From NCBI GenBank assembly GCA_001805695.1, contig MHGT01000007.1, positions 19,001-51,068 on the forward strand: a DNA stretch of 32,068 nucleotides. Direction: 5' to 3'. Shown one piece after another: positions 27,870 through 32,026 of this stretch (position 1 is its first letter; every line of letters begins with the position of its first letter). Source of the stretch: Omnitrophica WOR_2 bacterium RIFCSPHIGHO2_02_FULL_67_20 (lineage in GTDB: Bacteria > Omnitrophota > Gorgyraeia > Aquiviventales > Aquiviventaceae). The notes beneath the pieces were generated by a model that saw only the letters and a program-made list of their open reading frames with translations, searched no databases and was not told the origin of the DNA. The position numbers and the translations under genes were made by a program.

Positions 27870-28085
27870 TACGGATGTTCCCTCGACTTGCTCTGCGGCC
27901 GCTTCGCGGCCGTCAAATAAAATGTGGATGAGGGGTCCGGTTGTTCCCTCGTCGCGGATCTCGGCCGTCGGCCTCGACCGCTCCTCAGTTTGGGAGGAAC
28001 ACCTTAGTAATATGTGGATGTGGGGTCCGGTTGTTGCCTCGTCGGAGATCTCCGCCTTCGGCGTCGACTCCTCCTCGGCATCAAC
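27870..28085. repeat. Degenerate direct repeats, two clear copies offset 90 bp plus a partial upstream copy
   Basis: ATGTGGATGAGGGGTCCGGTTGTTCCCTCGTC (27922 on) versus ATGTGGATGTGGGGTCCGGTTGTTGCCTCGTC (28012 on); each has an internal CGGCCGCTTCGCGGCCG / CCGCCTTCGGCG-type palindrome. Confidence 0.8.
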
Positions 28086-28150
28086 CATAGGTCTGGAGTG
28101 AGGATGGTCCTCAGATGAGTAAGAGCATTTTTCTCCAGACCTATGGTTGA
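28081..28150. repeat. 18-bp perfect inverted repeat with 34-nt loop
   Basis: TCAACCATAGGTCTGGAG (28081-28098) / CTCCAGACCTATGGTTGA (28133-28150). Confidence 0.9.
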
Positions 28151-28294
28151 CCATATGTGTCTAAAAGGGGGATTCCTGATAGGGAGATTTGGTGGAGGAG
28201 ACCAAGAAGGCTTGGTAGCGCTTCCTTAGTGCTTCAGACGGTGGCTGAGGGGTTGCAGGTGGCGCTGGCCTCGACGTAACCAGGGAGCCGTAAA

Positions 28295-28675
28295 ATGGTG
28301 GTCAACGAGGCGTTCGGCTGGTTGTGGATTGTGCTGGGTTTCGCTTCAGGAACGCTCCTGGGGCTGAAGTTCCAGAGCGAAAGCTGGCTGGGAGGCTACG
28401 GTTCTCACAGACGGCGACTGATTCGCCTGGGCCACATTTCCTTCCTGGGACTTGGATTTTTGAACATCCTGTTCGCACATAGTCTTCCGCAACTTCGCCT
28501 GAGCCAGGCATGGTTATCGCTGGCTTCGTGGAGTTTGATGCTCGGAGGTGTGACCATGCCAGTGTGCTGTGGCTTGATGGCATGGCGGAAGAATCTGCAA
28601 CCAATTTTCGCCATCCCAGTCGTTGCCCTTCTCATCGGTGCGTTCCTGGTGCTGATCGGTATGGTGCAGCCATGA
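28295..28675 (+). CDS. Small multi-TM hypothetical membrane protein
   Basis: WLWIVLGFASGTLLGL, HISFLGLGFLNILFA, LSLASWSLMLGGVTMPV, FAIPVVALLIGAFLVLIGM; SD AGGGAG; ATGA overlap with next gene. Confidence 0.75.
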   Translation: MVVNEAFGWLWIVLGFASGTLLGLKFQSESWLGGYGSHRRRLIRLGHISFLGLGFLNILFAHSLPQLRLSQAWLSLASWSLMLGGVTMPVCCGLMAWRKNLQPIFAIPVVALLIGAFLVLIGMVQP

Positions 28676-30063
28676 AAGTCGGCTTCATCGCCATGAGTGG
28701 TGTGCGAGCGTACAACGAGGAACTCACGCGAATTGGGCTGACGCTTCCTGGTTTTGTCGAACGCAGCCAGGTCATTGCTTCATTGCCGAGCCTTTCACTT
28801 CTGACATTGGCGGCGATGACTCCACCGCCAATCGAGGTTGAGTATCGTGAGATCAAAGATTTGCGAAACACACCACCCCTTCCTACCGATTACGATCTGG
28901 TCGCCATCTCGTCCTTCTCTGCCCAAATCTACGAAGCCTACCAAGTCGCCGATGAGTATCGCAGACAGGGAATCCCTGTGGTTCTTGGCGGGCTTCATGT
29001 CAGCGTATTACCTGAAGAAGCGAAAACACATTGTACAAGTGTGGTAGTTGGCGAAGGTGAAATATCATGGGGGAAGGTTGTTGCCGATTTCGTTGCAGGG
29101 AAGCTCCAAGACTATTACACCCCTGCTGGGGAGTCGTACAACTTGGCAGACGCTCCGATTCCCCGTTACGAATTGCTAGACATCGAGCAATACAACCGGC
29201 TGACAGTCCAAACCAGTAGAGGCTGTCCTCACCGCTGCGATTTCTGCGCTAGTTCCATTCTGTTGACCCCCAAGTACAAGGTCAAACCTGTTGAACAGGT
29301 CATCGCCGAGATTCGAAGGATCAAGGCGATCTGGAAGCATCCATTCATCGAGTTCGCTGACGACAACAGCTTTGTAATTCGAGAGTATTACAAACGCCTG
29401 CTGCGTGCGCTCAAAGATGAAGGGCTTCGTTGGTTTACGGAAGCAGACATCTCCGTTGCCGAGGATGAGGGGTTGCTGCATCTGATGCGTGAAAGCGGCT
29501 GTCGGCAGGTGCTCATCGGCTTGGAAAGTCCCACACCGCAGGGCTTGGATGGCGTCGAGCAGCGGCGAAACTGGAAACTGAAGAAACTGCCGGACTACGA
29601 GTCAGCGATTCGTACCATTCAAGGGCATGGGATCACTGTGGATGGATGCTTCATCTTGGGACTGGATGGAGATGGTGAAGACATCTTTGATCGCGTCTAC
29701 GAGTTTGTCGAGAATACAGGATTGTATGAAGTGCAACTGACCGTACTGACGCCATTTCCTGGCACGCCGCTCTATCACCGCCTGAGACAGGAAGGGCGTT
29801 TACTCGAAGATCGAGCCTGGCACAAATGCACGCTCTTTGATGTGAATTACGTGCCCAAGCAGATGTCGGTTGAAAGGTTGGAACGTGGATTGGTGGAGCT
29901 ATCAAGAAGGATTTACGATAGTGCGTTTATTCGTGATCGAAGGAGACGCTTTTTCAAGACGCTGCGGAGAAGTGGAGTGGAGTGGTTGCAAAAAATGGAG
30001 GAGGGATGGGGCGATGAGTATCGGGACGATCAAGAAGCTGTTTGTGATCGCCGCGCTGTATGA
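28672..30063 (+). CDS. Radical SAM protein with probable N-terminal B12-binding-like domain
   Basis: VVLGGLHVSVLPEEA..VVVGEGE, TSRGCPHRCDFCAS (CxxxCxxC), FADDNSF, GLESPTPQGLD, GCFILGLDGDGED, LTVLTPFPGTPLY. Confidence 0.92.
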   Translation: MKVGFIAMSGVRAYNEELTRIGLTLPGFVERSQVIASLPSLSLLTLAAMTPPPIEVEYREIKDLRNTPPLPTDYDLVAISSFSAQIYEAYQVADEYRRQGIPVVLGGLHVSVLPEEAKTHCTSVVVGEGEISWGKVVADFVAGKLQDYYTPAGESYNLADAPIPRYELLDIEQYNRLTVQTSRGCPHRCDFCASSILLTPKYKVKPVEQVIAEIRRIKAIWKHPFIEFADDNSFVIREYYKRLLRALKDEGLRWFTEADISVAEDEGLLHLMRESGCRQVLIGLESPTPQGLDGVEQRRNWKLKKLPDYESAIRTIQGHGITVDGCFILGLDGDGEDIFDRVYEFVENTGLYEVQLTVLTPFPGTPLYHRLRQEGRLLEDRAWHKCTLFDVNYVPKQMSVERLERGLVELSRRIYDSAFIRDRRRRFFKTLRRSGVEWLQKMEEGWGDEYRDDQEAVCDRRAV

Positions 30064-30394
30064 TTTTGTTCTGGGTGTAGTCTTTTTGGTGGCTTGGAAG
30101 CAGGTCTACAACTATTTCGGGGTGACGCTCCCGAACCACGATGGCTACGTGCAATTTGGGGCGGCACTGGTGGCAATCTTCGGGGTTGGGTTTTGGCTTG
30201 TGGCGCAGAACCCTGAGCGCAACCGTGACATCATCAAAATGGGTGTCCTGTTGAAAATCGCATATTCGGGCGTAGTGCTTGGACACCACTTCTTCGGGAT
30301 GGTTCCAGGCGTGTGGGTTCCGTTTGCCTGGTGCGATCTTGTTTTTCTAGCGTTATTCGTAGCGGCACTGCGTGCCCTGCCATCAAGGGCGTAG
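30014..30394 (+). CDS. Small multi-TM hypothetical membrane protein
   Basis: KKLFVIAALYDFVLGVVFLVAW, AALVAIFGVGFWLVA, KMGVLLKIAYSGVVLGHHFFG, WCDLVFLALFVAALRAL; overlaps the 3' end of the radical SAM gene. Confidence 0.75.
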   Translation: MSIGTIKKLFVIAALYDFVLGVVFLVAWKQVYNYFGVTLPNHDGYVQFGAALVAIFGVGFWLVAQNPERNRDIIKMGVLLKIAYSGVVLGHHFFGMVPGVWVPFAWCDLVFLALFVAALRALPSRA

Positions 30395-30437: not shown

Positions 30438-30650
30438 ATGAATATGACGAAATCCATACATTTAATCACTTACGGCTGTCAGATGAATGAAAGAGATTCC
30501 GAGGAGGTGCTCGGGATGCTGACGGCGCAGGGCTACGAGATCGCCGGGCAGCCGGAAGACGCGGACGTCATCCTCCTGAACACCTGCTCGGTACGAGCCC
30601 ATGCCGAGGAGCGGGCGTTTGGGAAGCTTTCGGGTAGAGAATATTGTTGA
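30438..30650 (+). pseudogene. miaB: Truncated MiaB (N-terminal UPF0004 part only)
   Basis: HLITYGCQMNERDSEEVLGMLTAQGYEIAGQPEDADVILLNTCSVRAHAEERAFGKLS then GREYC*; no radical SAM CxxxCxxC domain follows. Confidence 0.85.
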
Positions 30651-30682: not shown

Positions 30683-31867
30683 ATGGAATACATCACTAGA
30701 CTGCTGGAACAGAAAATCCGACGGGCCCTCCATCGCAATAGAAGCATCCTGCTCTTCGGGGCCCGGCAGACCGGCAAGACCACGCTGATCAGCCGCTTTC
30801 ACGCGGATCTGGTCATCACCCTCGTGAGGCCGGACATCCGTCAGCGGTATGAAAAGTCACCACAGCTACTGGCCGGTGAGGTGGAGGCGCTCGCCCCCAC
30901 AGCCGCGAACACACGTCCGCTGGTCGTTGTCGATGAAGTGCAAAAAGTGCCAACGTTGTTGGATGTGGTGCAGGACCTCATTGACCGGGGCCGCGCCAAT
31001 TTTGTGCTGACGGGGTCCAGCGCTCGAAAACTTCGCCGCGGCGCCGTCGTCAATCTCCTGCCGGGGCGCGTGGCCACGTTCAGGTTAGATCCGTTCAGTT
31101 TGCGGGAAGTGCCCGCACAGGACGTGCATGAGCGCCTGCTGTACGGGTCGTTGCCCGGCATGCTGGCGGTGCCGGATCGTGCAGATCGAGAAACCGATTT
31201 GGAATCGTATGTGACGACGTATCTGGAAGAAGAGGTGCGGGCAGAGGCGCTTGTGCGGAATGTGGGCGATTTTGCCAGGTTTCTTGAGCTGGCCGCATCC
31301 GAATCCGGCAACATCGTCAACTTGAGAAAATTGTCTCAGGAGATCGGCGTGTCCCATACGACGATCGGGGCCTACTACCAAATTCTCGAAGACTGCCTGA
31401 TCGCCGAGCGGATTGAGCCCGTGACCCACAGCAAGACGAGGAAGAAACTGACCAAATCCGAAAAATACCTGTTCTTTGATTTGGGGGTCCGGCGTCTGGC
31501 AGCCCGAGAAGGCACGAAACTGCCGCGCGATACCTTCGGGCGGCTGTTTGAGCAATTCGTTGGTCTGGAACTGGTTCGGTGCGCCCATGCTGCGCACCGA
31601 ACCCTCGCCATCCGCTTTTGGCGTGATCCGGACGGCCCGGAAGTGGATTGGGTCATCGACGATGAGGGGGCCTATGCCCCCGTGGAAGTGAAATGGACGG
31701 ACCATCCTCGATCCGGCGACATCCGCCATCTGGAAGTGTTCCTCGACGAATATCCCTCGGCCAGGGCCGGGTACATCGTGTGTCACGTGCCGCGTAAAAC
31801 CAAGCTGAGCCGCCGCGTCGTCGCGCTGCCCTGGCAAGCCATTGACGAGCTGATCCCTGCGTCATGA
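30683..31867 (+). CDS. ATP-binding protein, AAA_14 plus DUF4143 type
   Basis: ILLFGARQTGKTTLISRF, VVVDEVQKVPTLLDVVQDLID, FVLTGSSARKLRRG, GRLFEQFVGLELVR, FWRDPDGPEVDWVI, PVEVKWTD. Confidence 0.93.
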   Translation: MEYITRLLEQKIRRALHRNRSILLFGARQTGKTTLISRFHADLVITLVRPDIRQRYEKSPQLLAGEVEALAPTAANTRPLVVVDEVQKVPTLLDVVQDLIDRGRANFVLTGSSARKLRRGAVVNLLPGRVATFRLDPFSLREVPAQDVHERLLYGSLPGMLAVPDRADRETDLESYVTTYLEEEVRAEALVRNVGDFARFLELAASESGNIVNLRKLSQEIGVSHTTIGAYYQILEDCLIAERIEPVTHSKTRKKLTKSEKYLFFDLGVRRLAAREGTKLPRDTFGRLFEQFVGLELVRCAHAAHRTLAIRFWRDPDGPEVDWVIDDEGAYAPVEVKWTDHPRSGDIRHLEVFLDEYPSARAGYIVCHVPRKTKLSRRVVALPWQAIDELIPAS

Positions 31868-31873
31868 CCCGCG

Positions 31874-32026
31874 CGATCTTTCTTCAAACCTATGGGTGAC
31901 CATAGTGGTGCAATACCTGGACTCCCCGCACTATCCAGACAGGCTGTTGCGGAGGACGCCAACCAAGTGTTCGAGGCGCTGGCCGATGGGTTCCGCCTTG
32001 TGCTGGCAGGAATAGAGTTGAAGTGA
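31874..32026. repeat. Second copy of a short repeat/mini-ORF also found degenerate at about 28126-28279
   Basis: TTTCTTCAAACCTATGGGTGACCATAGTG versus TTTCTCCAGACCTATGGTTGACCATATGTG; ORF 31892-32026 MGDHSGAIPGLPALSRQAVAEDANQVFEALADGFRLVLAGIELK. Confidence 0.5.

Follow-up and report, generated by a model that had tools for sequence, protein, structure and literature searches.

A B12-binding radical SAM protein recurs with small membrane-protein partners in about 19 phyla and may modify lipids at the membrane

Three tightly packed genes of an Omnitrophota genome encode a B12-binding radical SAM protein, here termed RSAM, and two small membrane proteins, TMA and TMB. They are located in a 32,068-nucleotide stretch of DNA which in its entirety is called the window. 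RSAM with recurrent small membrane partners is present in about 19 bacterial phyla, mostly uncultured, and is outside every named family tested. By comparison across genomes the trio consists of real genes in an arrangement beyond chance, and all three are kept as proteins in other phyla. The preservation of the arrangement across phyla, together with neighbors which build fatty acids, is indicative of a membrane-bound, so far undescribed enzyme modifying lipids or other greasy molecules. Our tentative reading, which we consider quite possible, is a membrane-docked radical SAM system with an acyl or lipid substrate, most likely operating by methyl transfer via cobalamin. If true, an unrecognized modification of lipids or hydrophobic molecules would be widespread in soils, sediments, and groundwater. 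The trio is a concrete gene set to match against unexplained membrane-lipid features, and TMA and TMB represent two new families of membrane proteins for which confident models exist. A description of the TMA-RSAM-TMB trio was not found in the open-licence papers searched.

All three genes are on the forward strand. TMA (28295-28675) encodes 126 aa with four predicted TM helices, RSAM (28672-30063) encodes 463 aa, and TMB (30014-30394) again 126 aa with four predicted TM helices. A mechanical call opens the RSAM reading frame at 28510; this is an over-extension, and the true start is the ATG at 28672. As read from the sequence, the TMA stop and the RSAM start have an ATGA in common (28672-28675, forward strand). 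TMB begins exactly 50 nt inside the 3' end of RSAM (30014 vs 30063), and a purine-rich GGAGGAGGGA is positioned just 5' of its start. Both overlaps had been noted in a preliminary description of this DNA and are exact. Equally accurate were its remarks that the enzyme carries CPHRCDFCAS, that both partners are multi-TM proteins of about 126 aa and of no recognized function, and that the trio is in a low-GC region (51-55% at 27-31 kb vs ~68% across most of the window). Co-translation had been regarded as likely. Coupling is supported by the exact 4-nt TMA/RSAM overlap, which recurs in 23 of 35 junctions, and we infer that TMA and RSAM are translationally coupled via the ATGA. The widely kept junction is this ATGA, not the 50-nt RSAM/TMB overlap; aligned RSAM homologs end after ~440-450 aa, close to or at the position where TMB begins, and the C-terminal ~20 aa which run into TMB are not common to them.

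The RSAM protein of the window exceeds the Pfam gathering cut-offs for the B12-binding (38.0 bits), Radical_SAM (60.8 bits), and DUF4070 (41.4 bits) domains, in agreement with its first designation as a B12-type radical SAM enzyme. C185, C189, and C192 of the CxxxCxxC cluster motif (CPHRCDFC) are invariant in 49 aligned members. The three domains and their order are like those of HpnP, and in terms of domain composition HpnP and HpnP-like proteins are the closest described architecture. HpnP is the B12-dependent hopanoid C-2 methylase, i.e., it has a membrane-lipid substrate; among HpnP and HpnP-like proteins activity is confirmed for the HpnP clade only (PMC10697835). RSAM differs in its two or three dedicated small partners in the membrane, encoded with a conserved overlap, in its fatty-acyl gene context, and in its hosts, which mostly are without a hopene cyclase.

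A close relative of RSAM is absent from the PDB, the best match being AprD4 (E 2e-14), and RSAM reaches no NCBIfam equivalog cut-off. HpnJ is the best match, yet weak (97.5 bits, cut-off 577.6); TIGR04072 gave 68.3 bits (cut-off 360) and HpnR 53.5 bits (cut-off 650), and the 49 RSAM homologs match these three only as remote relatives. TIGR04072 (rSAM_ladder_B12, ladderane-associated) resembles RSAM as a B12-binding radical SAM family annotated with lipid biosynthesis, unlike as they are in score. Anammox genomes are reported to possess a ladderane-associated radical SAM gene with fatty-acid-synthesis neighbors (PMC2649909). HpnJ, PhpK, BchE, and AprD4 are similar to RSAM in the radical SAM core, but RSAM remains far below the curated cut-offs of all of them. 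Tes and GMGT synthase are not known to depend on such small membrane partners. They are archaeal, and both are reported to be radical SAM enzymes acting on membrane lipid chains (PMC8941075, PMC11186832); RSAM is likened to them by description.

TMA and TMB belong to no Pfam family. The 39 TMA members and 24 TMB members gave weak, scattered matches only, and DUF4345, YtxH, and other Pfam families were rejected at scores near noise. AlphaFold predicts confident 4-helix models for both (mean pLDDT 96). Neither model has a PDB fold match at E<=0.001 (Foldseek); V-ATPase subunits and the like are generic helical-bundle matches. TMA has conserved W, G, R, H, and N positions, and the motif WxGGYxSxxRRLxRLGHI is conserved in a predicted cytosolic loop. 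The cytosolic location of RRxxRLxH is predicted because it is part of a positively charged stretch (positive-inside rule). In TMB the residues D17, G21, and K81 are invariant, and the predicted topology is N-in/C-in. Searches for TMB in viral contigs and plasmids, for TMA in plasmids, and for RSAM in phages returned no relatives at that sensitivity, thus there is no sign of carriage by phages or plasmids; plasmid relatives of RSAM are partial and at most ~35% identical.

Scanning a genome collection with the RSAM alignment identified at least 53 loci with ~50-70% identity. Neighboring TMA and TMB genes were counted by six-frame profile searches around the RSAM loci because simple ORF calling missed the overlapping TMA in GC-rich genomes. 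Among the 53 listed loci TMA is directly 5' of RSAM in 35. TMB adjoins RSAM in 23, of which 18 have it 3' and on the same strand, and both are beside RSAM in 17. The same genes are thus adjacent in distant lineages, as a gene-neighborhood check of the trio was meant to reveal. The opposite outcome, a trio not kept together elsewhere or TM reading frames not conserved as proteins, is not what was found, because the trio is conserved elsewhere. By a strict count neither TMA nor TMB is adjacent in 12 of the 53 listed loci, which we count against the membrane-docked reading; L069, L081, and L086 have RSAM without any recognized partner. In two additional loci, L072 and L074, further genes separate TMA from RSAM; in L072 the order is TMA, AMP-ligase, ACP, RSAM, and L074 appears to resemble it. 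A second set, from an order of Verrucomicrobiota, has TMA directly 5' in 16 of 20 RSAM loci; it partly overlaps the first, G404 and G405 being the hosts of L051 and L052.

The divergences of TMA and RSAM are correlated (r=0.67, n=37). Of the two small proteins TMA is the tightest RSAM partner; like the pairing of TMB with a second radical SAM family and its occurrence away from the RSAM gene, this was beyond what the earlier reader could see. In five TMA-less loci RSAM follows a gene for ~235 aa with some five TM segments (a weak Yip1 match in one), a 5-TM protein which can thus take the place of TMA. In three Hydrogenedentota loci RSAM follows mutually related genes for 182-238 aa, and the one scanned with Pfam matches hexapeptide transferases.

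Co-inheritance was evaluated within two groups. Of 384 Omnitrophota genomes 9 have RSAM and 13-15 have TMB relatives; 7 of the 9 RSAM genomes have TMB (Fisher p ~1e-9, shared ancestry ignored). TMA is present in 5 of the 384, four of them within the RSAM set, and in the fifth, G168, the contig ends within the RSAM gene that follows TMA. In the Verrucomicrobiota order 23 of 171 genomes carry RSAM, and all four genomes with a strong TMB are RSAM-positive (p ~2.6e-4, shared ancestry ignored). Three of the four encode TMB away from RSAM, hence the association of RSAM and TMB also holds in trans. The distribution of RSAM is patchy. Horizontal transfer is likely because the RSAM tree mixes phyla; contaminated bins are a possible contribution.

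The gene context bears on the substrate. The Omnitrophota locus L034 contains, in order, MFS-acyltransferase, an unannotated gene, DUF2339, a hexapeptide-transferase-like gene, AMP-ligase, FabF, ACP, TMA, RSAM, and TMB. By homology to L034, the order in L141 of G168 is FabF, ACP, TMA, RSAM. The order ACP, FabF, TMA, RSAM exists in L048, L051, L052, L059, and L060, four of which are from Verrucomicrobiota while one is labelled Granulosicoccaceae, and a ketosynthase is upstream in 7 of the 20 RSAM loci of the Verrucomicrobiota-order set. In the neighboring ketosynthases the Cys and His of the active site are intact, as is the Ser of the ACPs. These recurrent ketosynthase, ACP, and acyl-AMP-ligase neighbors with intact active sites favor an acyl or lipid substrate. 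Most of the 53 listed loci have no fatty-acid gene within the operon, therefore this substrate assignment rests on a minority of loci. The preliminary description had suggested that a lipid or a hydrophobic substrate is modified in a membrane-coupled manner; the FabF/ACP/AMP-ligase context and the recurrent membrane partners speak for it, and like the earlier reader we infer it.

The membrane-docked reading builds on the domains, the invariant CxxxCxxC, gene order, overlap, co-inheritance, and the correlated divergence of TMA and RSAM, further on the TMA Arg/His motif predicted to be cytosolic, the fatty-acyl context, the replacement of TMA by another membrane protein in some loci, and the precedent of HpnP (PMC10697835). 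TMA, plus TMB where present, would form or help to form a platform at the cytoplasmic membrane for the cytosolic RSAM, presumably as a physical complex of the three proteins. With its 4Fe-4S cluster and SAM, RSAM would activate an otherwise unreactive C-H bond; the substrate, an acyl chain or another lipid, would be bound to an acyl carrier protein or retained at the membrane. RSAM probably uses cobalamin, by way of which a methyl group would most likely be transferred; methyl transfer would thus be expected rather than another radical reaction, and the substrate would be acyl or lipid. A far more specific version is a long shot: the trio as a dedicated membrane enzyme that methylates carbons in mid-chain, or forms C-C bonds, on fatty-acyl membrane lipids, e.g., for the C5/C6 methyls of membrane-spanning lipids, with TMB representing a general class of radical SAM membrane partners. 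Bacterial membrane-spanning lipids do carry extra C5/C6 methyl groups (PMC13274423), and C5/C6-methylated membrane-spanning lipids are a merely conceivable product class of the trio.

TMB is not restricted to RSAM. Six Omnitrophota loci have a strong TMB in the absence of RSAM; in five of them the gene before TMB encodes a SPASM-type radical SAM protein, complete or in part, and in the sixth an SDR-SPASM fusion precedes TMB with a UbiA gene in between. In Omnitrophota genomes without RSAM, TMB usually accompanies this second radical SAM family (SPASM), often in lipid-like clusters. This is what one would expect of a general accessory, and TMB, perhaps also TMA, might be a membrane redox adaptor between the quinone/thiol pool and radical SAM enzymes, in which case the substrate need not be a lipid. 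The main support comes from Verrucomicrobiota, where a distant TMB-like 4-TM domain (E ~1e-14) is fused to an AhpC/TSA domain. With their thiol-peroxidase domain these fusions hint at redox function rather than docking and count against the membrane-docked reading; they differ from TMB by the attached peroxiredoxin-like domain and are outside RSAM operons in the loci read. In addition, a weak TMB relative in L142 adjoins a thioredoxin-domain gene; this relative and that of L143 have no radical SAM gene beside them. Against redox adaptors, TMB has no conserved Cys, neither TMA nor TMB has a recognized cofactor motif, and the FabF/ACP/AMP-ligase context is left unexplained. We consider a redox adaptor unlikely. 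The AMP-ligase, ACP, and KS genes adjoining the module in some loci, its patchy distribution, and the mixing of phyla in the tree would also agree with synthesis of a carrier-protein-bound small natural product, the membrane proteins then serving export or self-protection and not as a reaction platform. However, TMA is the 5' overlapping gene even in phyla without nearby biosynthetic genes, which is more in keeping with a core partner than with an exporter, and TMA and TMB match no transporter or resistance family; a natural product appears rather improbable.

That RSAM is a hopanoid-type methylase in the role of HpnP, HpnR, or HpnJ can be considered with even less confidence. The domains are the same three as in HpnP (PMC10697835), and HpnJ is the best NCBIfam match. 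Against this, the HpnJ and HpnR scores are far below the cut-offs, and of 34 RSAM host genomes only 6 have a hopene cyclase scoring above cut-off. The 10 Omnitrophota hosts, among them the incomplete genome of the window and several genomes that are at least 90% complete, have none. Hopanoid methylation is unlikely because most hosts have no hopene cyclase; for these the role was rejected, and as a general explanation it is hardly credible.

Several loci have features of their own. A cluster at L026:466-10137 comprises UbiA, OYE, ACP, a serine-palmitoyltransferase/AONS-like gene, a lipid kinase, a ThiL-like gene, KS, SDR, a SPASM radical SAM gene, and TMB; it looks like an undescribed lipid pathway. 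L025 has a similar cluster by gene order and size, and L027 a shorter version. The TMB-like AhpC/TSA fusion of L162 (1480-2415), with similar ones in L159, L163, L164, and L174, adjoins a flavin amine-oxidase-like gene. Four Omnitrophota loci have the order small rubrerythrin-like protein, TMB, RSAM, the first gene (L031:8964-9392, L032:9669-10082, L036:2265-2672, L037:2711-3127) being named after one weak, sub-threshold Pfam match.

Downstream of the trio about 70 codons (30438-30650) belong to the N-terminal half of a methylthiotransferase like MiaB, with 71 bits for the UPF0004 domain. This fragment breaks off just before an AAA_14/DUF4143 ATPase gene (30683-31867). A near-identical 20-nt direct repeat, CARACCTATGGKTGACCATA, at 28136-28155 and 31885-31904 encloses the trio along with the MiaB fragment and the ATPase gene. 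No further copy exists in the available genome sequence, and none is expected by chance in the window; the pair might delimit an inserted segment. An inverted repeat with perfect 18-nt arms and a loop of 34 nt (28081-28150) is directly upstream of the trio, and its right arm overlaps the 20-nt direct repeat. Two 69-nt direct repeats, 86% identical and spaced by 90 nt, are located upstream of the trio at 27918-28076.
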